A DNA stretch of 64,000 nucleotides from Myxococcales bacterium (lineage in GTDB: Bacteria; Myxococcota_A; Polyangia; Haliangiales; Haliangiaceae): NCBI GenBank assembly GCA_016794525.1, contig JAEUJY010000172.1, positions 1 through 64,000 on the forward strand. Reading direction: 5' to 3'. The translations under genes and the position numbers were made by a program. Under the pieces are notes generated by a model. It saw only the letters and a program-made list of their open reading frames with translations, ran no database searches and had not been told where the DNA came from. Of this stretch, positions 1 through 50,132 are shown one piece after another (the first letter of the stretch is position 1; each line of letters opens with the position of its first letter).

Positions 1-180
1 GCGGCGGCCAAGCCTGCGGCGGCGGCCAAGCCCGCGGCGGCGGCCAAGCCCGCGGCGGCGGCCAAGCCTGCGGCGGCAGCCAAGCCTGCAGCGGCGGCCA
101 AGCCTGCAGCGGCGGCCAAGCCTGCGGCGGCGGCCAAGCCCGCGGCGGCGGCCAAGCCCGCAGCGGCGGCCAAGCCTGCG
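1..180 (+). repeat. 15-bp tandem repeat encoding AAAKP units
   Basis: Units of the form GCG-GCG-GCC-AAG-CC(C/T) are repeated about twelve times with only third-position and occasional Ala-codon changes. The 15-bp period preserves the reading frame. Near-identity at the DNA level suggests recent slippage-type expansion, so the copy number probably varies between strains. Confidence 0.85.
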
Positions 181-213
181 GCGGCCAAGAAGCCGCCGGC
201 GAAGAAGAAGTAG
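1..213 (+). CDS. C-terminal tail of an Ala/Lys/Pro-rich basic protein (5' end outside window)
   Basis: The frame is open from base 1 and ends at TAG 211-213, giving 71 codons of a longer protein. The visible part is almost wholly a repeated AAAKP pentapeptide and ends in a Lys-rich PPAKKK tail. Such tails occur on histone H1-like and AlgP-like DNA-binding proteins and as basic extensions on other bacterial nucleoid or ribosome-associated proteins. The functional N-terminal part is not in the window, so no family is assigned. The next gene starts 8 bp after the stop. Confidence 0.75.
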   Translation, partial: AAAKPAAAAKPAAAAKPAAAAKPAAAAKPAAAAKPAAAAKPAAAAKPAAAAKPAAAAKPAAAKKPPAKKK

Positions 214-221
214 CGGCCGCG

Positions 222-3902: not shown

Positions 3903-4688
3903 ATGAGCGACATGAACCTGACCCTCCACATCTGGCGGCAAGCCAAGGGCACCGCCGCCGGCGCGATGAAGACCTACCAGGTCAAGGGCATCAGCGAGCA
4001 CGCGTCGTTCCTCGAGATGCTCGACGTGCTCAACGAGCAGCTGCAGGAGAAGGGCGAGGAGCCGGTCGCGTTCGACAGCGACTGCCGCGAGGGCATCTGC
4101 GGCATGTGCTCGCTGGTGATCAACGGTCGGCCCCACGGCCCCGACGCCGGCACCACCACCTGCCAGCTGCACATGCGGCGGTTCAAGAACGGCGACGAGA
4201 TCTACATCGAGCCGTTCCGCGCCGGCGCGTTCCCGGTCGTGCGCGACCTGTGCGTCGACCGCAAGGCGTTCGACGACATCGTCGCCGCCGGCGGCTACGT
4301 GACCGCCAACGTCGGCTCGGCGCCCGACGCCAACGCGGTGCCGATCCCCAAGGAGCAGGCCGACCGCGCGTTCGACGCCGCGGCGTGCATCGGCTGCGGC
4401 GCCTGCGTCGCCGCGTGCCCCAACAGCTCGGCGATGCTGTTCACCGCCGCCAAGGTCGCGCACCTCGCGCACCTGCCGCAGGGCCAGCCCGAGCGGCTGC
4501 GCCGGGTGAAGGCGATGGTCACCGCGATGGACGCCGCCGGCTTCGGCAACTGCTCGAACCACTACGAGTGCGAGGCGGCCTGCCCCAAGGGCATCAGCAA
4601 GGACTACATCGCGCTGATGAACCGCGACTACGCCAAGAGCGTGTTCGTGGCCAAGGACGCCAAGGCCGTCTCCGACGGCGCCGGCTGA
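3903..4688 (+). CDS. sdhB: succinate dehydrogenase/fumarate reductase iron-sulfur subunit
   Basis: 261 aa. The N-terminal ferredoxin domain has 2Fe-2S ligands Cys61, 66, 69 and 87. The C-terminal domain holds the 4Fe-4S motif [12 protein letters not shown] and the 3Fe-4S motif beginning [14 protein letters not shown]. It relays electrons between SdhA flavin and the SdhC hemes and quinone. It starts at the base after the sdhA stop codon. Third and last gene of the sdhCAB operon. Confidence 0.95.
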
Positions 4689-4765
4689 TCGCCGCGGCGA
4701 ACGCGAGGCGGCGGCGGGTAGACCGATCCCCACGCTCGCGCGTCCGACTCCGCATGGAGGCAGAC

Positions 4766-5326
4766 GTGGAGCGACGTGCGTCACGGGCGCGATCGTCGGG
4801 GTGCGCGCGGTCGGGGCGGGCCGGCGCGCGGCGGCGCGGCGCGCTGGCCGCGCTGGTGGCGGTCGCGCTGGTGGGGCTGGGTGGATGCCACGACGAGGCG
4901 TCGCCGCCGGCGGGCCGCGGATCGTCGTCGAGCACGGCCCCGGTCGTGGCCGCGGGACCTGCGGGCGCCGCGGCGGCGGCGGCGGCGACGGCGGTCGACG
5001 CCGGGACGCTCGCGGGCGTGGTCGACGCTGGGGCGCTCGATGCGGTGGTGAGCGCCGACGCGACGTCGGCCACCGCGACCACGCCGCCCGACGCGACGTC
5101 GTGCGGCGGACGGACGTGCGCCGCCGGGACGCGCTGCTACCGGCTGGAGATCGGGAACGGCACGCCGATGGTCACCAGCCCACCCGAGATCCGGTTCGAG
5201 TGTCGCCGCCGGGCGCCGCGCGGCGCGTGGGGGTGCCGCCGGCGCGGCGCCGGCTTCACCTGCACCGCGCTCGTGCCGATGCAGCCCCCGATCCAGTCGA
5301 CCGAGGGGCCCGACGCCGACCGATGA
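4766..5326 (+). CDS. putative lipoprotein, unknown function
   Basis: 186 aa from GTG 4766, chosen because GGAGG at 4756-4760 is well spaced for it; ATG 4754 in the same frame would add four residues. A long Arg-rich N-region is followed by a hydrophobic stretch and lipobox LGGC. A low-complexity Ala/Ser/Thr linker comes next, then a C-terminal Cys-containing domain (CGGRTCAAGTRCYRLE and later FECRR, FTCTA). I do not recognise the family. Extensive Ala/Asp coding makes the exact N-terminus uncertain. Confidence 0.6.
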   Translation: MERRASRARSSGCARSGRAGARRRGALAALVAVALVGLGGCHDEASPPAGRGSSSSTAPVVAAGPAGAAAAAAATAVDAGTLAGVVDAGALDAVVSADATSATATTPPDATSCGGRTCAAGTRCYRLEIGNGTPMVTSPPEIRFECRRRAPRGAWGCRRRGAGFTCTALVPMQPPIQSTEGPDADR

Positions 5327-5482
5327 TGCGTCCGGCTCACCCGGCCAGCGCGTGCAGGCCGGCCAGCGCGGCGTTCCCGGAGGGTGAGGCGAAGCGCCGC
5401 AGGCGACCGCGGTTGCACCGGCGGCGCGCGGCCCCAGCCTGTTCGCGAGAGCCCGAGCGGCCTCTCGCGAGGAGCGTACGCC

Positions 5483-6445
5483 ATGTCTCGCAGTCCCTGC
5501 TGGTTGTTGGCCCTGGCGGTGGCGGCGTGTGGCTCGGCGCCACCGGGGGTGGCGCGCCCCGATCAGCACGGCGCGACCGGCCCGGTGGTGGGGCCGACCG
5601 CGGCGACGCCGCCGTCGTGGGGCGACACGCTGCGCGGCGAGAACCTCGCCGACGTGCTGGTCGACTTCGTCCAGGGCCGGGCGGTGCCGTCGAACTTCTC
5701 GTCCCTGGCCCAGGGCCCCGAGCTGGCGCTGGGCAGCGTCTACGTGGTCAAGGCGCGCCCGGGCAAGACCTGCGCGTCGACCAGCGCCGCCGACTACGAG
5801 GACGCGCGGCTGCCCGACTTCCGCCTGCGCACGCCGGCGTGCGTCGTGAAGATCTTCCCCAAGGCGCAGCGCAAGGACCAGACGGTCCGCGGCAGCGTCC
5901 GCGGCGGCCTGCAGTTCATCGTCGGCGGCAGCCAGGTCAGCGCCGACGCGGTCTACCAGCTGTCGTTCGAGGACACCCAGGCGGTGTTCGAGAGCACCTC
6001 GGACTGCATCGACCTCGAGCGCCTGGCCAAGGCCCGGCTGCCCGAGCGCACCTGCGCCGCCAAGTACATCAGCGGCGCCGTGCTGACGACGATCACCTGG
6101 CGCGACTTCCAGAAGGCCGACGCCGCGGTGACCGGCTCGTACACCTCGCTGGTCAAGGTCGGGCTCGACATCTACGGCTCGACCTCGGGCATGACGATGA
6201 CGCCGGTCCTGAGCTTCGACACCATCGACCTCGAGGCGTTCCGGCTGGTGACCCAGGGCCCCGACGGGTTCCTGCAGGTCGCGCCGCCGACCAAGGCGAT
6301 CGCCTTCGACGACATCCGCCACGCGATCGCGCTGGGCGACGACGCGTTCCGGGCGCTGGCGCGCGGCGACGACCCGCGGTGGAGCCAGCTGTTCGGCCCG
6401 GGCGCGACCTACGCGGTGAAGCTCGACGGCGTCGCCGACGAGTAG
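5483..6445 (+). CDS. putative lipoprotein, unknown function
   Basis: 320 aa. ATG 5483 follows GAGGAG with 8-bp spacing and gives a lipoprotein signal peptide ending in LAVAACGS. The mature protein is a soluble domain with scattered Cys (CASTSA, ACVVKIF, DCIDLE, RTCAAKY) and no recognised motif. It probably sits on a periplasm-facing membrane surface. Neighbours give no functional hint. It is convergent with the minus-strand gene ending at 6474. Confidence 0.75.
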   Translation: MSRSPCWLLALAVAACGSAPPGVARPDQHGATGPVVGPTAATPPSWGDTLRGENLADVLVDFVQGRAVPSNFSSLAQGPELALGSVYVVKARPGKTCASTSAADYEDARLPDFRLRTPACVVKIFPKAQRKDQTVRGSVRGGLQFIVGGSQVSADAVYQLSFEDTQAVFESTSDCIDLERLAKARLPERTCAAKYISGAVLTTITWRDFQKADAAVTGSYTSLVKVGLDIYGSTSGMTMTPVLSFDTIDLEAFRLVTQGPDGFLQVAPPTKAIAFDDIRHAIALGDDAFRALARGDDPRWSQLFGPGATYAVKLDGVADE

Positions 6446-6473
6446 CCCGACCGGCGGGGCGGCGGCGGCAGGG

Positions 6474-7346
<873 letters not shown>

Positions 7347-7411
7347 GGCCGAAGCCTACGCCATCGGCCCCGGCGAGGACGTCCGGCCGGCGGGGAAGGC
7401 CGGCATCCGCG

Positions 7412-7729
7412 TCACAGCGCGAGCATGGCGATGACCACGACCAGGGCCGCGGCCAGGAGCGCGGCCGCCATGAGCTGCGCGATCAGGTCGAGGCGCGTCA
7501 TCGGCCGCGGCGGCGGCGCCTCGTCCGGATCGGCGATGGGGCGGGGCGGGCGTGGCGCGTCGGCCTCGGCGGGCGCGCGCGTCAGCGCGTCGGCGAGGCG
7601 GGCCCGCTCGGCCTCGCTCGCGTCGAGCGCCTGGCGCGCGGTCGCCGCGTCGGCGCGGGCGGCCGCGAGCTCGACCTCGAGGGCCTCGGCCCGTCGCAGC
7701 GCCGCCTCGTGGTCGTCGCGGTAGGTCAC
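7412..7729 (-). CDS. small coiled-coil protein with C-terminal membrane anchor (paralogue 1)
   Basis: 105 aa. It begins MTYRDDHEAALRRAEALE, continues as an Ala/Glu/Arg-rich coiled coil to about residue 50 and a Pro-rich linker, and ends in a single hydrophobic segment (about residues 80-105). The layout is that of a tail-anchored membrane protein with a cytoplasmic coiled coil. It lies 9 bp downstream of a gene for a protein of the same design, so the two form a tandem operon. No known family recognised. Confidence 0.72.
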   Translation of the reverse strand: MTYRDDHEAALRRAEALEVELAAARADAATARQALDASEAERARLADALTRAPAEADAPRPPRPIADPDEAPPPRPMTRLDLIAQLMAAALLAAALVVVIAMLAL

Positions 7730-7738
7730 GGCGTCACC

Positions 7739-8008
7739 TTAGCGCGCCGCGCCGCCGATCAGCGTGGCGACGGCGATCGACAGCAGCAGCACCGCCAGCA
7801 AGACCGCGACGGTGAAGCCGACCGGATCGTCGGCGGGCGCGGCGGGCGCGGGCAGCGCCGGCCCGGTCGGGGCCTGCTGCCGCGCGCGGCGCTCGGCGGC
7901 GGCGGCGCGGCGCTCGGCGGCGGCGGCCTGGTCGCGGGCCCGGCGGAGGTCGCGCTCCAGGGCCGCGGCCCGGGCGACCGCGGCGGCGTGATCGTTGCGA
8001 TAGCTCAT
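7739..8008 (-). CDS. small coiled-coil protein with C-terminal membrane anchor (paralogue 2)
   Basis: 89 aa from ATG 8008, chosen because this start gives MSYRNDHAAAVARAAALE, which aligns with the start of the downstream neighbour (M-S/T-Y-R-N/D-D-H). An Ala/Arg-rich coiled coil, an Ala/Pro linker and one C-terminal transmembrane helix follow. It is the first gene of a two-gene operon created by tandem duplication. Function unknown. Confidence 0.7.
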   Translation of the reverse strand: MSYRNDHAAAVARAAALERDLRRARDQAAAAERRAAAAERRARQQAPTGPALPAPAAPADDPVGFTVAVLLAVLLLSIAVATLIGGAAR

Positions 8009-8198
8009 CGAGGGATCAAGCTGGGGCCGCCGCCGGGGCCGGCAACGGCGAACCGGACCGCGGGGTGTAATCGTGCAGCGCGCGGCGTGGGAAGAAGTCG
8101 GAGGTGGCGCGTTGGGCCGGCGCACAGCGGGCCGCGATCGCGGCGGCCGGCCGAGCGCGCCGTGCGGGCGCGCGTGCGCCTTGTCCCAGGAGCGACCG

Positions 8199-10145
8199 AT
8201 GTCACGCACCCTCCGTCTCACCACCCTGGCCACGCTCGCGCTGGCCACCACCGCCGCCGCGGCCCACGCCGAGACCATCCGCGGCGTGCTCCGCTACACC
8301 GACGCCGACGGCTCGGCCAAGCCGATCCGCAACGCCAAGGTCGAGGTGTGGCGGCTGCGCCCCGGCGCGGTGTTCTGGAGCAACGATCTCACCACCGCCA
8401 CCGACGGCAACGGCGGCCTCGACGCGCCGATCGGCTTCGTCGGCGTCGGCACCAAGACCGCGCTGCGGGTGTTCGCCACCAACGACGCGGCCCAGGTCAT
8501 GACCCAGGACCTGCTGGTCCCGTTCTACCGCGAGCCCGGCCGGCCCGGCACCGAGATCCAGCGCACCACCGCCACCGCCGGCGACTTCCTCGACTTCACG
8601 TTCACGTTCCCCGACGCGTGGGCCAACAACCACTTCAACATCGCCGACGCGATCAAGTGGGCGCGCGACTACGCGCAGGGCCGTCGCGATCCGCGCGAGA
8701 CCGACCTGATCAACCGGGTCGACGTGCACTTCAACAGCCTCAACACGTACTACGACCCGATCCTGCACGCGGTGCGGCTCGATCCGACCTTCGCGATGGA
8801 CGACTTCACCGTGGTCCACGAGTACACGCACTACCTCGAGGAGTCGATCGGCAGCTTCTACGGCATCGCCTCGATCCACGATGGCTGCGCCGCGACCACC
8901 GCGGGCGTCGACGTGCGCGGCCCCGGCCTGGCGTGGATGGAGGGCTTCGCCAGCTACCTGCCGCAGGCGGTGCAGCGCGCGACCGGCGCGCTGGTCGGCA
9001 CGCCGGTCACCGGGAGCATCCCGGCCGGCACCCTCGAGAACCCGGCGTGCCCGCCGACCAACCTGCCGCCCAAGTCGCTCGAGCGGCCGGTGGCCGGCGC
9101 GCTGTTCGATCTGCTCGACGATCCCAACGAGCCGTTCGATCAGCTGGCCAAGCGCGACGTCGAGATCTTCCAGATCTTCGATCGCGAGCTCGACCTGGGC
9201 TGGACCAACCCGACCTTCGATCAGTTCGGCGCGGCGTGGATCGCGCGCGGCCTCGACGCGCCGCAGTTCCTGCAGTCGATCGGCGCCAACGGCATCTTCC
9301 TCGCCGGGCCGGCGCCGACCGAGTTCGTCGCCTACGACCACGCGCCCGCCGCCAACGTCGCGGTGTACCGATCGAGCGACGCCAGGTGGTACGTGCTCGG
9401 CGGTGAGCTGGCCCCGTTCCCGTGGGGCGGCGTGGCCAACGACATCCCGGTGCCGGCCGACTACGACGGCGACGGCCTGACCGACCTGGCGATCCGCCGC
9501 ACCGCCGACGCCACCTGGTGGGTGAAGAACTCGGCCAACGGCACGATCCGCACCTTCACCCAGGGCATCGCCACCGACCGCCCGCTGGTCGCCGACTACG
9601 ACGGCGACGGCGAGGACGACTTCGCGCTGTTCCGCGCCAACGGCCAGCTCACGGTGTTCGGCGACACCGCGCTCGAGCAGCGCACGTTCTACTCGTTCGC
9701 GATCCCCGGCGGCATCCCGGCGGTCGGCGACTTCATCGGCGACAGCAAGCCCGACCTGGCGATCTACGAGCCGTCGACCGGCGCGTTCTGGATCACCTCG
9801 CTGTTCGGCACCGGCGGCTGGTCGTTCCCGACGGTCGGCCGCGCCTTCGCCGACGACGTGCCGGTGGTCGGCGACTACACGCTGGGCGGCAAGCAGGAGC
9901 TCGCGGTCTACGAGCCGTCGACCGGCAACTTCCGCGTGCTGCCGTTCATCGGCGGCACGGTCACCGCGACCTGGTGGGGCGTCACCGGCGAGCGCCCGGT
10001 GCCCGCCGACTACGACGGCGACGGCGACACCGACATGGCCACCTGGAACCCGAGCAACGGCTGGTGGTACATCCGCACCAACACCGGCGGCCTGCGCAGC
10101 CAGCAGTGGGGCACCGCCGGCGACGTCGCCGTCCCGGCCCCGTGA
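8199..10145 (+). CDS. secreted zincin-like protein with FG-GAP/VCBS repeats
   Basis: 648 aa. ATG 8199 follows AGGAG (8188-8192) and yields a Sec signal peptide ending AAAHA. The N-terminal region has a fibronectin/CarboxypepD-like start. A metallopeptidase-like block follows with HEYTH at 207-211 (HExxH) and a candidate third ligand in WMEGF (E248), as in gluzincins. The C-terminal part (about 430-648) has at least five propeller-type repeats with DYDGDG or DFxGD calcium-binding signatures. It is probably an extracellular or surface protein. Protease activity is inferred from motifs only. It is convergent with the tRNA gene. Confidence 0.82.
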   Translation: MSRTLRLTTLATLALATTAAAAHAETIRGVLRYTDADGSAKPIRNAKVEVWRLRPGAVFWSNDLTTATDGNGGLDAPIGFVGVGTKTALRVFATNDAAQVMTQDLLVPFYREPGRPGTEIQRTTATAGDFLDFTFTFPDAWANNHFNIADAIKWARDYAQGRRDPRETDLINRVDVHFNSLNTYYDPILHAVRLDPTFAMDDFTVVHEYTHYLEESIGSFYGIASIHDGCAATTAGVDVRGPGLAWMEGFASYLPQAVQRATGALVGTPVTGSIPAGTLENPACPPTNLPPKSLERPVAGALFDLLDDPNEPFDQLAKRDVEIFQIFDRELDLGWTNPTFDQFGAAWIARGLDAPQFLQSIGANGIFLAGPAPTEFVAYDHAPAANVAVYRSSDARWYVLGGELAPFPWGGVANDIPVPADYDGDGLTDLAIRRTADATWWVKNSANGTIRTFTQGIATDRPLVADYDGDGEDDFALFRANGQLTVFGDTALEQRTFYSFAIPGGIPAVGDFIGDSKPDLAIYEPSTGAFWITSLFGTGGWSFPTVGRAFADDVPVVGDYTLGGKQELAVYEPSTGNFRVLPFIGGTVTATWWGVTGERPVPADYDGDGDTDMATWNPSNGWWYIRTNTGGLRSQQWGTAGDVAVPAP

Positions 10146-10166
10146 GCCGGTGCAGCGAGGAAGACG

Positions 10167-10249
10167 TGCGAGAGAGGGGACTCGAACCCCTACGGGTGAT
10201 GCCCGCTAGTACCTAAAACTAGTGCGTCTACCAATTCCGCCACTCTCGC
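10167..10249 (-). tRNA. tRNA-Leu (anticodon UAG)
   Basis: On the minus strand a complete class II cloverleaf can be folded. The acceptor stem is GCGAGAG/CTCTCGC with discriminator A. The D-loop has GGTAGACGC. The anticodon stem is CTAGT/ACTAG around loop TTTAGGT, giving anticodon TAG. A variable arm GCGGGCATCACCCGT and T-arm GGGGTTCGAGTCCCC follow. CCA is not encoded. It decodes CUA/CUN leucine codons. Confidence 0.97.
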
Positions 10250-10313
10250 GTGGCGGATCTCTTAGCACGGCGGCTGCGGCGCAGGCCACGGCCGCGGATC
10301 AATCCACGGCGAC

Positions 10314-11507
10314 TCAATCCACGGCGACCGGGCCGAGGTGCCACAGGGCGGGGCCGCGGTAGGTCGGCGTGCTCCAGACGCTGCGGCTGGTGCGGGCGCG
10401 GCCGAGCAGATCGATGGCGTCGCCGCGCAGCGTGCCGCCGCCGAAGCCGGCGCGGAACCAGCCGGTGGTGGGCTCGACCTCGAGCCAGTCGAGCGCGTCG
10501 ATCACCAGCGCCCCGTCGGCGCGCAGCTGGTCGTCGTCGGCGTCGCCGGGCGGGACCACCAGGCCGCGGACGCCGCCGTTGGGCAGCTCGCCGCGCAGCG
10601 CGGCCTCGCGATCGTCGAGGCCGAGCCCGACGGCGACGCCGCGGTTCACCAGCGGGAAGCGCCGCACCGCCTCGCCGCGCGCGCCCAGCGGCGCCGAGTA
10701 CCAGCCGAACGGCAACGTGCCATCGCTGGTGAGCGTCAGGGTCGCGGCGGCGCCGATCGCCTGCCCGGGCCGGTAGCGGACCAGGCCCTGGCGCTCGAGC
10801 CGCGGATCGGCCTGGGCGACGAACGCCGCGAGCAGGCCGCGGTCGCCGTGCAGCAGCGCGGCGGCGGTCAGCACCACCGGGTAGCGGCCGGGCGGCAGCG
10901 GCGCGGCGGTCGGCGTCGCGCGCGCGCGGGTCAGCGCGCCGGCGAGATCGAGGTCGGCCGCCCGGCGGGCGCGGGCGTCGATCGCCGCGCTGGCGGCGCC
11001 GCGCAGCGTCGCGCGCGCGGTGACCGCGGTCTCGCGCCAGGCGGCGCGCTGCGCGCGGCGGGTCACCAGCTCGACGTCCGCGACCTCGGCGGTCACGTCG
11101 GCGGTGGCCAGCTCGGCGGCGGGCAGCGCGGCGAGCAGCGCGTCGACCGCGCCGGCCGGATCGGCGGCCACGTCGGGATCGCTGGTGTCGACGCGCGCCG
11201 GCGCGGCGGGCGCCGGGCTCGCCCACGACGGCCCCAGCGCGGCGTCGGCCCGCGCCACCGCCATCGCCAGCAGCGGGCGCGCGTCGGCGCCGGCGGCCAC
11301 CGTGAAGCTCGCCGTGCCGCGACCGGCCGGTGCGTCGCGGTGCAGCGTGACGGTCAGCGTCGCCCCGGTCGCGGTGCCGCGGCCGGCGAGCTCGCCCAGC
11401 CGGCGCCACGCGCGCTGGGCGGTCACGACCCGCACCGACCAGTCGGCGAGATCGCGGCGGGCCCGCAGCGCGTCGAGCACCGCGGCGCGATCGGCGGCGA
11501 CCGTCAC
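10314..11507 (-). CDS. TldD/PmbA-like (TldE-type) protein
   Basis: 397 aa from GTG 11507, which overlaps the stop codon of the upstream gene (GTGA). Its general layout (an N-terminal SVRV-type strand region, a long middle domain, and a C-terminal block with GWFRAGFGGGTLRGDAIDLLG and RTSRSVWSTPTYRGPALWHLGP) resembles the non-catalytic PmbA/TldE partner of TldD peptidases. It has no HExxxH motif, as expected for that subunit. It very likely forms a heterodimer with the product of the overlapping upstream gene. Assignment rests on architecture and context. Confidence 0.6.
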   Translation of the reverse strand: MTVAADRAAVLDALRARRDLADWSVRVVTAQRAWRRLGELAGRGTATGATLTVTLHRDAPAGRGTASFTVAAGADARPLLAMAVARADAALGPSWASPAPAAPARVDTSDPDVAADPAGAVDALLAALPAAELATADVTAEVADVELVTRRAQRAAWRETAVTARATLRGAASAAIDARARRAADLDLAGALTRARATPTAAPLPPGRYPVVLTAAALLHGDRGLLAAFVAQADPRLERQGLVRYRPGQAIGAAATLTLTSDGTLPFGWYSAPLGARGEAVRRFPLVNRGVAVGLGLDDREAALRGELPNGGVRGLVVPPGDADDDQLRADGALVIDALDWLEVEPTTGWFRAGFGGGTLRGDAIDLLGRARTSRSVWSTPTYRGPALWHLGPVAVD

Positions 11508-40859: not shown

Positions 40860-41045
40860 GTGCGCCGGCGCCGTCCTGCATGACGTGCGCGTCGCATGGC
40901 CTGGCGCCGCCGGCCCCATCGGGGGCGCTGCTGGCGGGCTTGCACGAGGGCGTCCTCGAACCACGCGGCGACCCCGCCGGTGTCGTCGCGCTCCGTCACG
41001 GTCACGACGTCACCGGCCTCTCGAGGTTGGACTGTTACCAGCCTC
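40860..41045 (-). pseudogene. short remnant of an IS481-type transposase N-terminus
   Basis: Translating the minus strand from 41045 gives VTVQPREAGDVVTVTERDD ... VAAWFEDALVQARQQRPRWG, which matches the start of the larger remnant beside it, then diverges. There is no integrase core. It is a truncated second copy of the same element and shares a perfect 30-bp sequence with the larger copy (41011-41040). Confidence 0.7.
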
Positions 41046-41099
41046 CACCTGAACAGACTCGGTGATCCCTGACGTCCGCGCTCGCGGAACGCGGGACTG

Positions 41100-41812
41100 T
41101 GGCAGCCGGCACGGCGACCACGGCGAAGTCGCGCGGCCGAGCCCGCGCCAGCGGGCTCACAGCCGCGAGCGCCCCGTCGAGCGAGCGGTATAGCGGCGCT
41201 CCCGGGCCGGCGACATCTCGCCGGCGAGGGCGGTCGAGATGAACACGCGCCGTCGGTCCCAGCGGATGAATCCACGCTTGTCGACCGGGGGGCCATCGGG
41301 GGCCTTGTCGGCGCTCGTAGGTGTACGCGTACCGGAAGTGCTCGAAGACGCGCTGCGGGGCACGTGCGTGCTCGGCCGGCTCCCGCTCGAGCTCGGCCAG
41401 CGTCCGGGGCTCCATCGCTCGCCGGACCTGTCTTCCGTCGGGCCGGCTGAGCGCGGCGCACGCCACCAAGTACCGGCTGAACGCGTCGGTGATGGTCAAC
41501 GCGTGCGCCAGCGGAGCGGAGTGCTCTGGCGTGCAGCGCCGACGTCGTCGCGGTCGCACCAGACCGTTGCGCCGGATGATGAGCGCAAACGTGCTCACCG
41601 ACGGCAAGTCGGCCTTGGGGTTGGCGCGGAGCATGGCCTGCCCCAGCTTCCGTGGCCCCCACCTGGGGCGCTGCTTGCGCGCGTGCACGATGGCGTCCTC
41701 GAGCCAGCCGGCCACGGCCCGTGGGCTGTGGTGCGGCCGACTCGAACGATCGTCGAGCTCGCAGCCCGCCATGAAGTCACCGGCCTCTCGAGGTTGGACT
41801 GTTACCAACCTC
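41100..41812 (-). pseudogene. decayed IS481-family transposase
   Basis: Minus-strand reading from about 41808 gives the HTH-side motif RPRWGPRKLGQAMLRANPKADLPSVSTF and IIRRNGLVRPRRRRR, then ALTITDAFSRYLVACAAL from the DDE core. It jumps to a C-terminal-like block (LAELEREPAEHARAPQRVFEHFRYAY). A later piece, GFIRWDRRRVFISTALAGE, is in another frame. The W-x-x-DF start of the core and the catalytic Asp/Glu region are deleted, so this copy cannot transpose. Confidence 0.78.
41778..41807. repeat. 30-bp direct repeat (second copy at 41011-41040)
   Basis: The sequence starting CACCGGCCTCTCGAGG and ending ACTGTTACCA is identical at 41011-41040 and 41778-41807. It corresponds to the 5' coding end of the two IS481-type remnants and may include the element terminus. 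The spacing of 767 bp marks the length of one decayed copy. Confidence 0.85.
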
Positions 41813-41880
41813 TATAGACCGGACCCCCGTGACGGGGCCTTGACGAATGGGGCGGTCGTTGCTATCTATGCCGTATTCAA

Positions 41881-42612
41881 ATGGGGCCGCCACGCTGCCG
41901 CCGCACGCCGGTCCAGCTCACGCTGGAGCAGGCACGTCGCCCCACGGGGCATGGCGGCTGGCGTCCCGGCGCCGGTCGGCCGAAGGGCCGCGCCACCTGC
42001 TCCCACCAGGCCCGGCCGCGGTTCCCGGCGTCGGTGCCGCTGCACGTCACGCTCAAGCTCGCCGCCGGCGTGCCGTCGTTCCGCCGCGCCGCGACGATGC
42101 GCGTCGTCCGCGCCGCCATCGCCGCCGGTGGTCACCGCGGCGACTTCCGCGTCGTCCACTACAACGTCCTCGGCGACCACCTCCACCTCGTCGTCGAGGC
42201 CGCCGGCGCCGCCGCGCTCGCCCGCGGCATGCAGGGCCTGTCGGTCCGCCTCGCCCGCCGCGTCAACGCGCTGCTCGGCCGCCGTGGGCGCCTGCTGGCC
42301 CAGCGCTACCACGCGCGCCCGCTGCGCACGCCGACCGAGGTGCGCAACGCCGTCCGCTACGTGCTGCTCAACGCCAGACACCACGGCGCCGAGCGCGGCG
42401 CCGTGATGGCGCGCGGCTGGGTCGATCCGTACTCGAGCGCGCTGTGGTTCGACGGCTGGAAGGCCGCGATCCGCACCGACGCTCCGTGGCTTCGCGCGCT
42501 GGCGAAGGAGGGCCGCCCCACCGCCGATCCGCACACCTGGCTGCTCGCCATCGGCTGGCGTCGCGGCGGCGGTCTCATCGACATCGACGACGTCCCGGGG
42601 CCTGCACCCTGA
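41881..42612 (+). CDS. REP-associated-type Y1 (IS200-like) transposase
   Basis: 243 aa, ATG 41881. The Y1_Tnp domain has FPASVPLHVTLKLA, the HUH metal motif in GDHLHLVVEA, RLARRVNALLGRRGRLLAQRYHARPL, and VRNAVRYVLLNARHHG near the catalytic region. The N-terminus has a GHGGWRPGAGRPKG linker common to this family in Myxococcota. RAYTs are domesticated single-strand transposases acting on REP-type palindromes. REP-like repeats lie 55 bp downstream. It appears intact. Confidence 0.82.
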   Translation: MGPPRCRRTPVQLTLEQARRPTGHGGWRPGAGRPKGRATCSHQARPRFPASVPLHVTLKLAAGVPSFRRAATMRVVRAAIAAGGHRGDFRVVHYNVLGDHLHLVVEAAGAAALARGMQGLSVRLARRVNALLGRRGRLLAQRYHARPLRTPTEVRNAVRYVLLNARHHGAERGAVMARGWVDPYSSALWFDGWKAAIRTDAPWLRALAKEGRPTADPHTWLLAIGWRRGGGLIDIDDVPGPAP

Positions 42613-42789: not shown

Positions 42790-42995
42790 GGACGGGGTCG
42801 GAGACGGGGACGGGGATGGGGACGGTGAGCGGGGACGGGGACGGGGACGGTGAGCGGGGACGGTGAACGGTGACGGTGACGGGATCGGGGACGGGGACGG
42901 GGACGGGGACGGGGACGGGGACGGGATCGGGGACGGGGACGGGATCGGGGACGGGATCGGGATCGGGATCGGTGACGGGATCGGGGGCCGGGGCT
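42790..42995 (+). repeat. GGGGAC/GGGATC hexanucleotide array between convergent genes
   Basis: About 200 bp of GGGGAC, GGGATC and GGTGAC/GGTGAGC units fill most of the 392-bp gap between the Y1 transposase and the HD-domain gene, which are convergent. The same GGGGAC and GGGATC units occur in the 13.6-kb array. The rest of the gap holds only the REP-like repeats. Confidence 0.9.
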
Positions 42996-43004
42996 CTTTG
43001 ACAA

Positions 43005-43571
43005 TCAGGTGCGGCCGGCGAGGCCGAGTTCGGTCGCGTGGGGGCGCAGGGCGTCGATGAGGAACGCCAGGTGGTCGTCGAGGGTGACGTCCAGGAGCTG
43101 CGCGCCGGCGGTGACCTCGTCGCGGTCGACGGTGGCGGCGAAGCGCTTGTCCTTGAGGCGCTTCTTGACCGACGCGACCTCGAGCGAGGCGATGCCGTCG
43201 GGGCGGACCAGGCAACAGGCCATCACGAAGCCGGTGGGCTCGTCGCAGGCGAGCAGGGCGCGGTCGAGGCGGGTGTCGTAGGGCACGCCCCACCTGGTGT
43301 AGTGCGCGCTGATGGCGTGGGCGATCGCCTCGTGGCCACGCTCGCGGAGCCACGCGACGACGCGGTGCGGGTGCTCGTCGGGCCAGCGCTCGTAGTCGGC
43401 GTCGTGCAGCATGCCGGCGATGCCCCAGGCCTCGACGTCGGCGTCGCCGGCGCCGTAGCGATGGGCCGCGGCGCGCATCACCAGCTCGACCGCGCGGGCG
43501 TGGCGGCGCAGCGAGTCGCCCGGCGTCCAGTCGAGCAGGAGGGCCCAGGCGTCGTCGCGGGTGAGCGTCAT
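43005..43571 (-). CDS. HD-domain phosphohydrolase-like protein
   Basis: 188 aa, ATG 43571. HD-domain metal residues: His in LRRHARAVE, the HD pair in GMLHDADYERWP, a downstream His in AHAISAHYT, and Asp in LLACDEPTGF. This fits the small HD hydrolase group often annotated as HDIG/YedJ-like. Nucleotide substrate unknown. It lies 73 bp downstream of the RiPP operon on the same strand and could be co-transcribed. Confidence 0.85.
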   Translation of the reverse strand: MTLTRDDAWALLLDWTPGDSLRRHARAVELVMRAAAHRYGAGDADVEAWGIAGMLHDADYERWPDEHPHRVVAWLRERGHEAIAHAISAHYTRWGVPYDTRLDRALLACDEPTGFVMACCLVRPDGIASLEVASVKKRLKDKRFAATVDRDEVTAGAQLLDVTLDDHLAFLIDALRPHATELGLAGRT

Positions 43572-43644: not shown

Positions 43645-44472
43645 TCAATGCGTCGGGAACGAGAGCGTGCCGACCGCGTAGGCCGACAGCGCGTCGGCGT
43701 CCCACGAGCCCATCGAGATGCCGACGGCGAAGGTCGCGAACTGGTCGAGGCCGACCAGCCAGCCCGCCGGGTCCATCAGGTCGATGGGGCCGTTGAGCTG
43801 GTAGGTGCGGCTCTCGATGAACGTCATCGACACCGTGCGGTGATCGTTGGGGTCGGTGATCTCCAGCTCGCTGATGCGGCGGGTGAGCCCGGCGCGCAGG
43901 GCGGGGTCCTTGGTGAGCGGCAGGTCGGCCTGGAGCTGCGCCAGGCGGGCGGCGCGGAACGCCACCGGATCGGACCCGCCGGTGGCCTCCTGCATCAGCT
44001 GGGTGCCGAGCGCGAAGCTGGCGGTGCGGCGGGCGGCGAGCAGCGCCGGCGGCGCGGTGTAGACCGTCAGGTCGGGCTGGCTCGGGTCGAGGTAGTCGCG
44101 GCGGCGGAACCGAAACTCGCCCTGGGTCAGGCTGACGTCGAAGGGCTCGAGGGCCTCGAAGCCCTGGGCCATGACGACCTCGTTGACCGACTCGAACATC
44201 GGCCGGTCGTGGAGCTCGACGATCGCGCCGATCAGCGGGTGCCGGGGCACGTCGACGCCGTCGACCGAGACCGCGCGCACCGCCAGCCCGATCGCCGGGC
44301 CGTGGCTGCGCGGCGCCACCGGATCGTGGGTGCGCAGCACGCGGTCGAGGTCGGGCTCGCCGGGCAGCGCGAAGGTGTAGCCGCTGATGCCGCGGGTCTC
44401 GTCGGGCGGATCGGGGTTGGTCGCGAGCCGGACCTGCAGCCAGCCCGCGAAGTGGCAGACGGTGATGCTCAT
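43645..44472 (-). CDS. unrecognised protein, last gene of the borosin-like operon
   Basis: 275 aa. ATG 44472 overlaps the upstream stop (ATGA). It is soluble, with no signal peptide. Visible landmarks: ATNPDPPDETRGISGYTFALPG near the N-terminus, FRRRDYLDPSQPDLTV mid-protein, and GTQLMQEATGG. I do not recognise a family. Start/stop overlap with a VioB-type gene argues for a joint role, either as an enzyme partner or a binding subunit. Sequence alone gives no catalytic motif. Confidence 0.82.
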   Translation of the reverse strand: MSITVCHFAGWLQVRLATNPDPPDETRGISGYTFALPGEPDLDRVLRTHDPVAPRSHGPAIGLAVRAVSVDGVDVPRHPLIGAIVELHDRPMFESVNEVVMAQGFEALEPFDVSLTQGEFRFRRRDYLDPSQPDLTVYTAPPALLAARRTASFALGTQLMQEATGGSDPVAFRAARLAQLQADLPLTKDPALRAGLTRRISELEITDPNDHRTVSMTFIESRTYQLNGPIDLMDPAGWLVGLDQFATFAVGISMGSWDADALSAYAVGTLSFPTH

Positions 44473-45773
44473 GGGTTGGCCGCCACGTAGGCGCGGACGC
44501 GCTCGGTGAGGTAGGCGACGTTCTTGGCGACGAACGCCATCCGCGCGGGCACGTCGGGCGCCGCGGCCAGCTCGGCGAAGCCGGCCGCCAGGTGCGCGAA
44601 GCGCTCGACGAGCTGCTGGTGAAAGCTGACGCGGTCGCGGTAGGCGCGGATCGGGCCGTCGAGCTCGAAGGTGAACGCGGCGGCGTGGCGACCGTCGCCG
44701 GCGGGCAGCTGCACCAGCATCTCGCCGACCGGGCGCACCACCATCGTCATCAGCGGGAAGAACGCGATGCCCTGGTACATCGCCAGGTCGGCGGCGGTGG
44801 CGTCGCTGGCGCCGTACTGCCGGGTCAGGAGCAGCAGCATCAGCTCGTAGGCGCGCGTGCCGAGCGTGGCCAGCGCCACCGCGCGGCGGTCGGTGAACAG
44901 GCACACCTCGGCGCTGGGATCGACGTCGCCGTGGGGGTAGCTCTGCGGGTTGGCCGGCACGGGGCGCAACGCCGCGGCGCGGGCCGCCGGCGACAGCGCG
45001 TCCCAGGCCGCGCGCATCTCCCGCACCCGGGCGTAGTGCGAGGTGGTGTCGGCGGGCACGCCGAGCATCACCGGCGTCGCCAGCAGGGTCGGCGTCGCGC
45101 CCTCGCCCTGGACGCGGATCAGATCGATCGCCGCCAGCGCGCTCGCCAGATCGTTCACCCGGATCAGCGTGATGCCGTACCAGATCTGGCCGGGGCTCGC
45201 GCCGAACGCGGCGTTGTCGAGCTGCGGCGCGGTGGCGCCGAGGAACAGCGTGTCGGCGGTCGGCGCGCCGGGGGAGCCGAGGGTGACGAAGCCGGCCCGC
45301 AGCCGCTCGTAGACCTCGGCGATCGACGCGTAGTACGGGCCGAGCGGGTGATCGGGCGGCTCGTCGCACGGCGCCTCGAGCCGCTCGGCCAGCGTCAGGA
45401 ACTCGTCGCCGAACGGGGTCAGCGCCAGCGGCAGCTCGACCTGGTAGAAGCGCGGCGGCAACGGCAGGTTGGGGCGGTCGAAGTTGGGCGGCGCGCCGAC
45501 CGCGACCAGCAGGTTGGACACCAGGCCGAGGTGCTCCATCTCCTGCCGCGCGATGTGCAGGCACGAGATCACGAAGCCGCGCACGGTCTCGCTGTCGGCC
45601 GGCGACAGCCCGGGGGCGGTGACGTCGAGCGAGAACGCGGCGTACAGGTACTGCGCCATGATCGCGTGCTCGAGCTCGGCGGCGCGGCCCAGCGCGTCGA
45701 TCAGGTCCTCGCGGGTGCGGATCGGCGCGATCGGCGGCGGCGCCAGCACCGCGGCGATGCTGGCCAGGCTCAC
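44469..45773 (-). CDS. VioB-type ferritin-like domain enzyme
   Basis: 434 aa. GTG 45773 overlaps the methyltransferase stop (GTGA). A ferritin-like four-helix domain has Glu/His iron-site motifs in LGRAAELEHAIMAQYLYAAFSL and ISCLHIARQEMEHLGLVSNLL. The downstream half (TRAYELMLLLLTRQYG ... GIAFFPLMTMVVRPVGEMLVQLPAG) follows the C-terminal part of VioB/RebD iminophenylpyruvate dimer synthases. VioB itself has a long extra N-terminal domain absent here. A probable metal-dependent oxidative enzyme acting on the RiPP; chemistry inferred. Confidence 0.85.
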   Translation of the reverse strand: MSLASIAAVLAPPPIAPIRTREDLIDALGRAAELEHAIMAQYLYAAFSLDVTAPGLSPADSETVRGFVISCLHIARQEMEHLGLVSNLLVAVGAPPNFDRPNLPLPPRFYQVELPLALTPFGDEFLTLAERLEAPCDEPPDHPLGPYYASIAEVYERLRAGFVTLGSPGAPTADTLFLGATAPQLDNAAFGASPGQIWYGITLIRVNDLASALAAIDLIRVQGEGATPTLLATPVMLGVPADTTSHYARVREMRAAWDALSPAARAAALRPVPANPQSYPHGDVDPSAEVCLFTDRRAVALATLGTRAYELMLLLLTRQYGASDATAADLAMYQGIAFFPLMTMVVRPVGEMLVQLPAGDGRHAAAFTFELDGPIRAYRDRVSFHQQLVERFAHLAAGFAELAAAPDVPARMAFVAKNVAYLTERVRAYVAANP

Positions 45774-46570
45774 GGCGCCCCCGCCAGCCCGAAGCGCCGA
45801 CCGTCGAGCCCGAGCCGCGCGATCATCGCCGGGTCGGCGGCGCGGCGCTCGCGCGGCGGCACGAACAAGGTCGACGCGGTGGTGAGCGGCGTCGCCGGCA
45901 GGTCGGCCAGCCGCACGTGGTCGATCCGCGCCCGGCAGGTCGGCAGCTGCGGCGCCTCGTACACGACGACGACGTGATCCTCGCCGTACACCGGGGCCAG
46001 CTCGGCGACCAGCACGCGCAGGTTGTCGGCGTTGGTGCGGCCGGGGTTCCAGGTCAGGTCGCCGACCACGCCGATCTGCCACAGGATCATCGCCGCCGAC
46101 GGATCGGGGCGCCGGCGGTAGACCAGGAAGTCGGTGACCTCGTACTGGGCGCAGCCGACGACCGCGGGATCGAACCCGAGGTCGGCGAACAGGCAGTCCT
46201 CGGCCGAGACGCCGGGCTCCATGATCGCCCGCAGCCCCTCGGCGCGCGCCCGCCGGATCGCGTCGTGCGACGGATACACGAAGACGCCGGGGTGGCCGTA
46301 GAACGCGGCGCACACGGTGCGGCCGGCGCGCACGCCGGTGAGCAGCGACTGCGTCATCGCCTCGTAGGTGTCGTGGCGCGCGCGGCCGATCGCGTAGAAG
46401 CGCGACAGCGACTGTGCGTGCGGTGCCAGCCCCCGGATGGTGGCCTCGGTCAGCGGATCCGCGGCGACGTAGTGGACCTCGTCGGCCGAGGCGATCCACG
46501 CGCGGGCGTCGGCGGTCAGGTGGCCGACGGCCTTGATGCCGGTGCCGACGACGGCGAGCAGCCCGCTCAC
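45770..46570 (-). CDS. borosin-type (OphMA/SonM-like) peptide backbone alpha-N-methyltransferase
   Basis: 266 aa. GTG 46570 overlaps the precursor stop (GTGA). Tetrapyrrole/corrin-methylase fold: SAM-binding VVGTGIKAV, FYGHPGVFVYPSHDAIRRA, EPGVSAEDCLFADLGFDP and ILWQIGVVGD, all strongly like the OphMA methyltransferase domain. Tyr59, Arg65 and Tyr69 keep the spacing of the OphMA catalytic Tyr66/Arg72/Tyr76. No core peptide is fused at its C-terminus, so it is a split borosin system acting in trans on the adjacent repeat precursor. Cytoplasmic. Confidence 0.92.
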   Translation of the reverse strand: MSGLLAVVGTGIKAVGHLTADARAWIASADEVHYVAADPLTEATIRGLAPHAQSLSRFYAIGRARHDTYEAMTQSLLTGVRAGRTVCAAFYGHPGVFVYPSHDAIRRARAEGLRAIMEPGVSAEDCLFADLGFDPAVVGCAQYEVTDFLVYRRRPDPSAAMILWQIGVVGDLTWNPGRTNADNLRVLVAELAPVYGEDHVVVVYEAPQLPTCRARIDHVRLADLPATPLTTASTLFVPPRERRAADPAMIARLGLDGRRFGLAGAP

Positions 46571-47496
46571 TTGGGATCGCTGCCGGTGTCGGTCGGGCTG
46601 GCGGCGTAGACCACCGGCGCGGCGGGGGCGGCCGCGTAGACGACCTGGGCCTGGGGCGCGGCGGCGTAGACGACGGCGGGGCTGGTGCCGGCGGCGTAGA
46701 CGACCTGGCTCTGGCCGGCGGCGTAGACGACCTGCGCCTGACCGGCGGCGTAGACGACCTGCGCCTGACCGGCGGCGTAGACGACCTGGGCCTGGCCGGC
46801 GGCGTAGACGACCTGGGTGTGGCCGGCGGCGTAGACGACCGGCGCGCCCGCGGCATAGACGACCGGCGCGCCCGCGGCGTAGACGACCATCGGGTGGCCG
46901 CCGCCGCCCGCGGCGTAGACGACGGCGGGGTTGTTGCCACCTGCCGCGTAGACGACGGCGGGGTTGCCGGCGCCGGCGGCGTAGACGACAGCGGGGCTGG
47001 CGCCGGCGGCATAGACGACCTGCGCCTGACCGGCGGCGTAGACGACAGCAGGGCTGGCACCGGCGGCGTAGACGACGGCGGGGCTGGCACCGGCGGCGTA
47101 GACGACCTGGGCCTGACCACCGGCGGCGTAGACGACGGCGGGGCTGGCACCGGCGGCGTAGACCACCTGCGCCTGACCGGCAGCGTAGACGACCTGGGCC
47201 TGGCCCGCGGCATACACGACCGCGGCGTGCGGCGCGCCGGCGGCGTAGACGACCGCGCCCTGCGGCGCGCCGGCGGCGTTGACGACCTGCGACGGGCTGG
47301 TGGCGTAGACCACGGCGGCGGCGGCCTCTTGCCCGATCGCGGCGTGGAGCCGGCCCGGATCGCGCGAGCGCAGGGTGGCCTTGTCGGCCTCGGACAGGTC
47401 GGCGGCGGCGATCGCCGCCTCGGGCTGCGCGGCGAAGGCCTGCTGGGCGGCGGGATCACCCGCCAGGTGAGCGAGATACGAGAGCAAGGTCTGCAT
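46567..47496 (-). CDS. multi-core borosin-type RiPP precursor (25 VVYAAG-like repeats)
   Basis: 309 aa, ATG 47496 with an AGGAG site. Residues 1-55 form a helical leader (LLSYLAHLAGDPAAQQAF, QPEAAIAAADLSEADKATL) resembling the SonA borosin-binding domain/Nif11-like leaders. From residue 62 to 300 there are 25 tandem cores: 20 read VVYAAG exactly, the others VVYATS, VVNAAG, VVYAAA (twice) and VVYAAS. Spacers are QAQ, ASPA, AP, GNPA and similar. Ends SPTDTGSDPK. There is no signal peptide. The stop overlaps the methyltransferase start. Expected to be iteratively N-methylated. Confidence 0.9.
   Translation of the reverse strand: MQTLLSYLAHLAGDPAAQQAFAAQPEAAIAAADLSEADKATLRSRDPGRLHAAIGQEAAAAVVYATSPSQVVNAAGAPQGAVVYAAGAPHAAVVYAAGQAQVVYAAGQAQVVYAAGASPAVVYAAGGQAQVVYAAGASPAVVYAAGASPAVVYAAGQAQVVYAAGASPAVVYAAGAGNPAVVYAAGGNNPAVVYAAGGGGHPMVVYAAGAPVVYAAGAPVVYAAGHTQVVYAAGQAQVVYAAGQAQVVYAAGQAQVVYAAGQSQVVYAAGTSPAVVYAAAPQAQVVYAAAPAAPVVYAASPTDTGSDPK
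46597..47313 (-). repeat. tandem core-peptide repeats of the RiPP precursor
   Basis: 25 units of 24-36 bp share GTCGTCTACGCCGC(C/G) on the minus strand with variable 6-18-bp spacers. Spacer types occur in blocks (runs of QAQ; runs of ASPA), suggesting duplication of multi-unit segments. Synonymous changes are few. Confidence 0.93.
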
Positions 47497-47537: not shown

Positions 47538-50132
47538 TCAGCGCCCGCGATCATCGAACGAGCGCGCCAGCCGGAACCCGACCGAGATGTCGCGCATGAT
47601 CGACATCGAGTCGTGCCGGGTCGCGGCGCGCAGCAAGAACGAGTCGAACAAGAAGCAGCCGCTGCGCAGCGTGCGGTTGGCCGGCGGCGCGGCGCTGCCG
47701 TCGAGCGGCGGCGCGTAGCGTCCGTCCGGCAGCGGCGGCCCCTCGCGGCGGTAAGCGTCGCCGCACCACTCGCAGACGTTGCCGGCGAGGCTGCGGGCCA
47801 GGTACGGGCTGGTGTCGATCGGGAACAGCGCGATGTCGCGCGGGCGCAGGCCGTCGTCGCAGCTGAGCCGCATGTTGGCCCAGGTCGGGTCGAAGTGATC
47901 GCCCCACGGGAACGCGCGCCCGTCGGTGCCGCGCGCGGCCTTCTCGAACTCGAGCTCGCCGGGCAGGCGGTAGCGGCGGCCGCCGCGCTGCGCCAACCAC
48001 TCGGCGACCGCGACCGCGCCGTGCCACGTCACCATGCAGGTCGGCATCTCGGGCTGCCAGGTGATGCCCTCGTCGTCGGTCGCGAGCGTGAACTCGCCGC
48101 GCTCGTTGCGCGGCCAGATCAGCGTGCCGGCCTCGCCGACGGTCGAGCCGCGGTGCCGCGGGACGATGCTCAACGCCAGCGCCTCGGCCTCCGGCGTGCC
48201 TTCGGCGACCAGCGCGTTGGCCATCGCCAGCAGCTCGCGGTTGGTCACCGGATCGCGGCGCAGGATGAACGAGTCGACCCACACCCGCTGCCGCGGCATG
48301 ACCTCGCCGGCGGCCTGGGGATCGCCGCCGCACCAGTACGGGCCGCCGGCGACGAACACCTCGTCGTCGTCGACCTCGCCCAGCCGCGGCAGCACGACCG
48401 GCGTCGTGGTCGCGTCGCCGGGGCGGATCGGATCCCAGTGCTCCTGGCGGCCGATCGCCACCGGGTAGCGCACCTCGTGGTGGCCCGGGGCGCGCAAGAT
48501 CAACAGGTAGCTGCCGCGCGGCAGCTCGAGCGCGCGGATCGGCGTGACGCCGAGGTCGCGGACGTGCTCGTCGACCAGCCGGCGGCCGCGCAGCTCGTAG
48601 CGGCGCAGCTCGACCTCGGCCGGCGGCTCGGTCACCAGCGTCAGCGCGCCCATCCCGGCCAGGTACGCCGCGTGCTCGCCGCGGTCGTGGGCGCGCAGCA
48701 GCTGCTCGATCGTGCGGGCGTTGGGATCGTGGCGGGCCTCGGCCGCGACGTGCAGCGCGCGGTAGTGGCGGGCCAGCATCGCGTGGGCCTCGGGCAGCTC
48801 GGCCTCGATCAGCGACAGGTCGATCAGCCGGTTCATCTCGACGGTGGCCAGCTCGGCGTCGAGCCGCTTGCCCGCGGCCGCGTCCTCCAGCTCCCAGCCC
48901 GGCTGCTTGGCCTCGGCCGGCGCCGACGGCGGCAGCCCGTCGAGGATGGCCCGCGCCTGGCGGGTCAGGTCGGCGGCCTCGCGCTCGAGCTCGGCGATCC
49001 GCGGGCCGACCGCCTCGGCCTGGGCCAGCAGCTCGCGGGCGCGCTCGCGCTTGCGGGCGCCGTCGAGGAACGCCTCGACCGCCCGCGCCAGCTCGCCGCC
49101 GTCCGGGAACCGCTCGGCGATCGCGTGGCGGGTGGCGCGCTCGGCGATCGCGATCAGCTCGTCGGGGAGCGGCCGCTCGGCGGTGGCGACGATCGGCGCC
49201 AGCACGCCCATCCGCTCGGGCAGGCTCGGCGGCTTGCCGGTCAGGATCTCGCGCAGGATCATGCCCAGCGCGTAGACGTCGGCCGGCGGGCCCAGCTCGA
49301 CCTCGCCGGCGGCCTGCTCGGGGGACATGTAGCCGGCGGTGCCGGCGATCGAGCCGGCCTGGCTCATCAGCGCGTCGTCCTCGCCGCGGGTCGTCGACGG
49401 CCCGCGCACCGCGGCGTCGATCTGCTTGCCGATCCGCGCCAGCCCCCAGTCGAGCACCAGCACCTCGCCGAACGGGCCGAGCATGACGTTGTGCGGCTTG
49501 AGATCGCGGTGGACGACGCCGCGCACATGGGCGAAGCCGACGCACTCGCACACCCGGTGGAAGTAGTCGATGAGGCGGCGGAACGACACGCCGGCCGGCT
49601 CGGGCGTCCAGCCCGCGGCCGACGCGGCGTGCACCGCCTCGATCACCGACGCCAGCGTGCGGCCGCGGATCTCGGCCATCGTGTAGTACGGGCGGCCGTC
49701 GGCGAGCGTGCCGATCTCGTGCACCGGCACGACGCTGGGGTGCTGGAGCTGGGCGGTGACCTGGGCCTCCTGCACGAACCGCGCGATCGCCACCGGATCG
49801 TCGCACCACCACTCGCCCAGGATCTTCATGACCATGTCGCGGCGGAGCTGGCGGTCGTAGACCCGGTACACGTCGCCCTGGCCGCCGCCGGCCAGGTGCT
49901 TGCCGAGCTGGTAGCGGTCGGGCGGGGTGATCCCGCCGACCGGGTGGACCTGGCGCGGGCGCGCGTCGAAGGTCTCGCCGTGGCGGATCGCGCTGCCGTC
50001 CGCCATGGTCGGCGCCTGGCTGGTCGCGGCGGGGTCCGCGCCGTGGTGGCCGAACGGCGTGGTGTCGGCGCCGGTCGCCGCGCCGCCCACCGGCGGCGAC
50101 TCGGCTCCTGGGCTCCCCTTCGGCTCAGTCAC
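47538..50132 (-). CDS. Ser/Thr kinase fused to a SUMF1/FGE-sulfatase domain
   Basis: 864 aa, GTG 50132. Kinase domain about 70-340: AGGGQGDVY, HRDLKPHN, DWGLARI in place of DFG, GTAGYMSPEQ. A coiled coil (about 350-410) and an FHA-less linker follow, with a PEGA-like segment (LPRGSYLLILRAPGHHEVRYPV). The SUMF1 domain (about 570-864) has LPGELEFEKAARGTDGRAFPWGD, GNVCEWCGDAYR, LRSGCF and ISVGFRLAR. There is no transmembrane segment. It lies 41 bp upstream of the RiPP precursor on the same strand, so likely in the same operon. Confidence 0.9.
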   Translation of the reverse strand: MTEPKGSPGAESPPVGGAATGADTTPFGHHGADPAATSQAPTMADGSAIRHGETFDARPRQVHPVGGITPPDRYQLGKHLAGGGQGDVYRVYDRQLRRDMVMKILGEWWCDDPVAIARFVQEAQVTAQLQHPSVVPVHEIGTLADGRPYYTMAEIRGRTLASVIEAVHAASAAGWTPEPAGVSFRRLIDYFHRVCECVGFAHVRGVVHRDLKPHNVMLGPFGEVLVLDWGLARIGKQIDAAVRGPSTTRGEDDALMSQAGSIAGTAGYMSPEQAAGEVELGPPADVYALGMILREILTGKPPSLPERMGVLAPIVATAERPLPDELIAIAERATRHAIAERFPDGGELARAVEAFLDGARKRERARELLAQAEAVGPRIAELEREAADLTRQARAILDGLPPSAPAEAKQPGWELEDAAAGKRLDAELATVEMNRLIDLSLIEAELPEAHAMLARHYRALHVAAEARHDPNARTIEQLLRAHDRGEHAAYLAGMGALTLVTEPPAEVELRRYELRGRRLVDEHVRDLGVTPIRALELPRGSYLLILRAPGHHEVRYPVAIGRQEHWDPIRPGDATTTPVVLPRLGEVDDDEVFVAGGPYWCGGDPQAAGEVMPRQRVWVDSFILRRDPVTNRELLAMANALVAEGTPEAEALALSIVPRHRGSTVGEAGTLIWPRNERGEFTLATDDEGITWQPEMPTCMVTWHGAVAVAEWLAQRGGRRYRLPGELEFEKAARGTDGRAFPWGDHFDPTWANMRLSCDDGLRPRDIALFPIDTSPYLARSLAGNVCEWCGDAYRREGPPLPDGRYAPPLDGSAAPPANRTLRSGCFLFDSFLLRAATRHDSMSIMRDISVGFRLARSFDDRGR

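Follow-up and report, generated by a model that had tools for sequence, protein, structure and literature searches.

What does a bacterial operon make when it sets a borosin-type methyltransferase between a repeat-rich precursor and a ferritin-like enzyme? The question is raised by a 64,000-nucleotide stretch of DNA from a Myxococcales bacterium (hereafter the window), for which an earlier note proposed a split-borosin-like operon of four minus-strand genes, encoding a precursor, a methyltransferase, a VioB-type protein and an unrecognised fourth protein. We located all four open reading frames and confirmed the 4-bp overlaps joining them on the minus strand (GTGA at 46567-46570, GTGA at 45770-45773 and ATGA at 44469-44472). 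The four genes are as described, but the unit is larger and includes a kinase-FGE gene at 47538-50132 that had been missed and that ends, in the window, 41 bp upstream of the precursor. The features are:

47538..50132, minus strand: kinase-FGE gene (Pfam Pkinase 8.2e-26, FGE-sulfatase 7.2e-27)
46567..47496, minus strand: precursor gene, a LigA-like borosin-binding leader followed by 25 repeat units (leader profile to SonA, 1.7e-6)
46600..47313, minus strand: repeat (core) region, 24 units of VVYA[AT] and one of VVNAA, with variable Gly/Ala/Pro/Gln spacers
45770..46570, minus strand: SonM-type alpha-N-methyltransferase, 266 aa, with a GTG start inside the 4-bp overlap (SonM 7ltc, E 1.2e-60)
44469..45773, minus strand: VioB-type ferritin-like protein, 434 aa, two helical bundles (PF12902 1.7e-29)
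43645..44472, minus strand: beta-barrel protein, 275 aa, from a family without a name; obligate partner of the VioB-like gene (model pLDDT 93)

All five genes, the kinase included, have strong coding periodicity, with GC at third positions of 0.92-0.98, and a GGAG ribosome-binding-like site lies immediately upstream of the precursor ATG. We found no protease or exporter gene within the operon. The HD-domain gene at 43005-43571 was rejected as a member because, while it adjoins the unit in one related genome (G006), it was not seen beside the unit in another (G017). Further downstream, fragments resembling transposon proteins were recognised by reading at 41035-42612 (integrase-like on the minus strand, IS200-like on the plus strand), and between these and the HD-domain gene a short-period repeat at 42820-43060 gives GDGDGIG and SPSPSP frames, on both strands. 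An open frame with GGQACGGGQAR repeats occupies the edge of the window (1-1130).

The gene order recurs, a point that the earlier note had raised as a question. Among 95 genomes around that of the window, three others (G006, G009 and G017), all of the same family, carry all five genes at about 60-83% protein identity (methyltransferase 80-83%, VioB-like protein 63-76%, last protein 63-74%). The kinase-FGE gene, which encodes a Ser/Thr protein kinase carrying a fused FGE-sulfatase (SUMF1-like) domain at its C-terminus, has orthologues directly upstream of the precursor leader in all three. G017 has the complete precursor; in G006 and G009 a contig break falls inside the repeats, and the leader and kinase-FGE gene stand at the end of another contig. 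Because the five genes recur together, the kinase-FGE gene belongs to the unit, and the conserved unit is one of five genes with kinase-FGE first. Large kinases also adjoin the borosin genes of a Sorangium-like genus.

Pfam assigns the methyltransferase to the broad TP_methylase family, and against the PDB at E<=0.01 it matched borosin enzymes only, with SonM at 1.2e-60 and OphMA, dbOphMA and MroMA at 1e-51 to 1e-53. A cobalamin or siroheme methylase, the identity that the earlier note had set against its own reading, can be rejected: Pfam and NCBIfam returned only the general TP_methylase family and YabN far under its cut-off, and since no such methylase was among the PDB matches, the objection does not arise. 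The enzyme has the Tyr59-Arg65-Tyr69 spacing reported for it, with Y59, R65 and Y69 aligned with SonM Y58, R67 and Y71, and Y91 aligned with SonM Y93; the GHPGVF and PGVSAEDCLFAD blocks are likewise both present. Mutation of SonM Y58, R67, Y71 and Y93 showed that these residues matter (PMC8429565), and Y59, R65, Y69 and Y91 are kept in the methyltransferases of the three close relatives. At a separate locus (L110, G362:C5:403000-420000), three borosin-type methyltransferases follow one another, separated by leader-type peptides and large kinases.

The leader of the precursor (residues 1-57), compared alone, matched only gallate dioxygenase, weakly (0.05) and in its LigA-like cap. A profile built from nine leaders of borosin-type loci matched SonA best (1.7e-6), followed by gallate dioxygenase and, at 7.5e-4, the OphMA clasp, in keeping with the published observation that the borosin-binding domain has structural homologues which cap dioxygenase active sites (PMC8429565). 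Together, the PDB matches of the methyltransferase, the leader profile and the recurring gene order bear out the split-borosin reading, which we regard as well supported at the level of sequence. By homology, the LigA-like leader would dock on the methyltransferase dimer, like SonA on SonM, and the enzyme would then use SAM to methylate backbone amides in the hydrophobic V-V-Y-A-A units; leader docking and N-methylation are, on this basis, very probable.

We counted 25 units in the precursor, in agreement with the 25 cores of the earlier note, 24 with VVYA and one with VVNA. They are tandem, short (mostly 8-12 residues) and nearly uncharged; after residue 60 the protein has no Cys, Trp, Phe, Leu or Ile and hardly any charge. 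Across positions 1-5 of the window units, synonymous change (pS 0.25) is far commoner than non-synonymous change (pN 0.015), indicating that the units are under purifying selection as protein and are more than a recent DNA repeat. That the repeats are an artefact of assembly was also rejected, because assemblies made independently have this gene order and Tyr repeats as well. The operon is missing from some genomes of the genus, as it might be if it were decaying or silent and had no product, but this is very improbable given the intact frames, the kept catalytic residues, the pS/pN contrast and a gene set that four genomes share, its proteins about 60-83% identical.

Each genome has its own unit, namely VVYAA in the window (25 units), MVYGA (14), AIYAS (32, on one contig) and MVYAAQ (12, on one contig). 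Tyrosine is present in 82 of these 83 units, and positions 1, 2, 4 and 5 vary. Eight other borosin precursors (L033, L106, L109, L110, L111, L114, L115 and L117) have short tails that lack Tyr repeats, and no VioB-like gene was noted beside them; among the borosin precursors examined, Tyr-centred repeats beside a VioB-like gene occur only in the window and its three relatives. Repeats as such are not unique to this precursor, because two other tails are also repeated. At L107 (8866-9375, minus strand) a borosin-type leader is followed by a repeated Ser/Thr-Arg-Pro tail, possibly of phosphorylated repeats, and adjoins a large kinase; at L116 (5363-6286, on a Burkholderia arboris plasmid) a precursor-like protein near a borosin-type enzyme has a TEVTTEVT tract before a hydrophobic stretch.

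Short, nearly uncharged tandem units that differ in each genome, no evident shared cleavage motif between them and an operon free of protease and exporter genes would also suit an end product other than a set of small peptides: the whole repeat protein is N-methylated, perhaps Tyr-oxidised or cross-linked as well, and acts in polymeric form, for instance as a material that resists proteases or is cross-linked. We hold this possibility only tentatively, since no signal peptide is apparent on the leader by reading, the host may supply proteases or transporters from other loci, and for many published borosin clusters no peptidase is known either (PMC11395268). It is compatible with our preferred explanation, a split borosin whose repeated cores are modified further by the VioB-like and 275-aa proteins.

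The first of these proteins is a clear PF12902 member (103.7 bits against a gathering cut-off of 22.3). It matches the VioB profile TIGR04492 over positions 596-973 (1.4e-22); because the score is 79.4 bits against a curated cut-off of 1250 and covers only the C-terminal half, we call the protein VioB-type and not VioB. Profile comparison with the ferritin part of VioB-family proteins gave 1.1e-28. Its model (pLDDT 90.5) matches 3hl1 with Z 24.3 and rmsd 2.9 over 265 residues at 22% identity, and residues 291-434 form the second helical bundle. The putative metal ligands E35, E78xxH81, E133 and H246 are invariant in an alignment of 35 homologues.

The second protein was called unrecognised in the earlier note, and indeed it has no sequence match in Pfam, NCBIfam or the PDB, nor did sequence profiles of its family find anything convincing in the PDB. 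The family hallmark, FxGWxxxRLATDPDPTDExRGxSGYTFA, lies near the N-terminus, and R15, D21, E39, R199, D258 and D260 are invariant in 41 sequences. Dirigent and AbyU-type barrels top the fold neighbours of the model, at weak Z scores of 5.0-5.9 that are under the reliable level (best match Z 5.9, rmsd 3.5, 129 residues), and a Foldseek search of the model returned no match at E<=0.001. VioE is absent among the fold matches listed, which excludes nothing. We rejected the idea that the protein is the missing N-terminal half of VioB, as profile comparison with the N-terminal regions of the VioB family gave no match (probability 0.4%).

We scanned about 85,000 species genomes with an alignment of the 275-aa family and found 46 loci in many phyla, with a VioB-like gene immediately upstream on the same strand in every one (46/46). 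The VioB-like gene and the barrel gene form an obligate pair, always adjacent; the earlier note had the genes right but did not see this pairing. In nearly all of the 46 loci no borosin gene stands beside the pair, and in most, such as those of Streptomyces, it adjoins genes unlike those of a peptide pathway, which suggests that a small molecule may be what it usually acts on. The host genome itself carries a second pair (L036, G000:C128:119000-130000, at 4440-10791), followed by a gene for a 1307-aa kinase and lacking a precursor and methyltransferase; L037, L038 and L039 are similar three-gene sets of pair and kinase.

Other neighbours of the pair resemble precursors. In two Sorangium genomes and one Pyxidicoccus, a gene just upstream encodes a protein of about 180 residues with C-terminal YQFFC, FRFCC or YRLCC; such aromatic/Cys-ending proteins lie directly upstream of the pair at L050 (4769-5782), L051 (944-1474) and L062 (5987-6529). 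A protein of similar length with an aromatic/Cys end lies near a borosin enzyme at L112 (6626-7153), and the end motifs across the four loci are YRLCC, FRFCC, YQFFC and CFCC. It is possible that these are precursors of another modification. In a member of the Rhodothermia, the gene for a 72-residue LigA-like protein with a C-terminal GIFC comes first, then a diverged methyltransferase-like gene (L049, 3464-4219) and lastly the pair. We rejected this as an independent second borosin case and regard it as a related arrangement only, because the enzyme lacks the catalytic tyrosines, with GHPG kept. In a tree of the barrel proteins, the four from Sorangium, Pyxidicoccus and Rhodothermia group together with moderate support (94/89), separate from the clade of the window (100/100). 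Since that branch also has an upstream precursor-like gene, the pair has more than one peptide-linked context. The four cases that combine borosin genes and pair form one small clade, not several independent ones.

What, then, does the pair do in this operon? VioB works on indole-pyruvate imine, an amino-acid-derived substrate. This activity, the varied neighbours of the pair in loci that nearly all lack a borosin gene, and the host's second pair with a kinase and no precursor would be expected if only the methyltransferase acted on the precursor and the pair made or modified a small molecule that is used separately or attached later. We judge this the less probable course, as four of the genes are joined by 4-bp overlaps, the five-gene unit is conserved in four genomes, Tyr-repeat precursors occur only where the pair is present, and a reading of the open reading frames of the operon showed no gene for a VioA-like amine oxidase. 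An enzyme resembling iron oxidases and its constant partner sit beside the methyltransferase, and oxidation of the peptide by an as yet undescribed route is therefore probable as well.

We slightly favour a split borosin in which the repeated cores are N-methylated and then Tyr-modified by the VioB-like/barrel pair. The VioB-like enzyme, with its carboxylate/histidine metal site, could oxidise the tyrosine of each unit, for instance by hydroxylation or Tyr-Tyr coupling, and the barrel partner could bind or steer the substrate or an intermediate. That the pair modifies these tyrosines, a view based on how the genes are linked, on the invariance of the tyrosine and on a metal site that is intact, is about an even chance. 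The kinase-FGE protein might regulate the system or phosphorylate one of its components. Dirigent proteins steer phenoxy-radical coupling, and a dirigent-like barrel with an oxidase-like partner and a repeated tyrosine offers an analogy to this chemistry that is suggestive, no more. A bolder version, which we put forward as doubtful, is that each N-methylated unit is oxidised or cross-linked at Tyr by a two-component di-metal oxidase, of VioB-type subunit and dirigent-like barrel, and that the same pair is a widespread, undescribed modification system acting on other peptides in other bacteria, such as the precursor-like proteins with aromatic/Cys ends.

To our knowledge, backbone N-methylation of ribosomal peptides is confined to very few RiPP families, the borosins among them, and few borosin end products are known. 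A 25-unit precursor would yield many copies of one N-methylated motif per translation, which would help in peptide engineering. As a two-gene module, the VioB-like/barrel pair is conserved across at least eight phyla, its second gene without a Pfam or NCBIfam family; in this operon the chemistry of the pair can be tested directly, because a repeated candidate substrate is genetically linked to it.

Among known proteins compared with the pair, VioB (iminophenyl-pyruvate dimer synthase) shares its ferritin-like C-terminal half with the window protein, which lacks the N-terminal half and has instead an unrelated barrel partner and a peptide precursor in its operon. The Caulobacter ferritin-like protein CC_0557 (3hl1) has the same fold over 265 residues, to which the window protein adds its second helical bundle. 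Dirigent proteins and AbyU-type cyclases have a weak fold likeness to the 275-aa protein without sequence similarity, which may be one of arrangement only, and they do not have its long helical insertion.

Borosin types have been described by architecture (PMC11395268). The borosin papers examined do not mention a ferritin-like protein; the surveys of types V-X and type 0 and the RODEO borosin module lay outside this comparison and may already list this cluster. The fungal borosins OphMA, dbOphMA and MroMA have a homologous methyltransferase domain and a LigA-like clasp but differ in fusing enzyme and precursor, and we know of no ferritin-like partner gene among them. The closest likeness is to the type IV split borosin SonM-SonA of Shewanella oneidensis (PMC8429565), which likewise has a separate methyltransferase and a BBD-led precursor, with matching catalytic residues. 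SonA carries one short core with two methylations, whereas the window has 25 tandem units together with a VioB-like enzyme, a barrel protein and a kinase-FGE protein; membership of the split borosins (type IV, class 3) holds despite the 25 units because the papers examined define the class by enzyme and precursor being separate, whatever the number of cores. The operon is best explained as a variant of the split borosins in which the precursor is expanded to many cores and an oxidative module is added.
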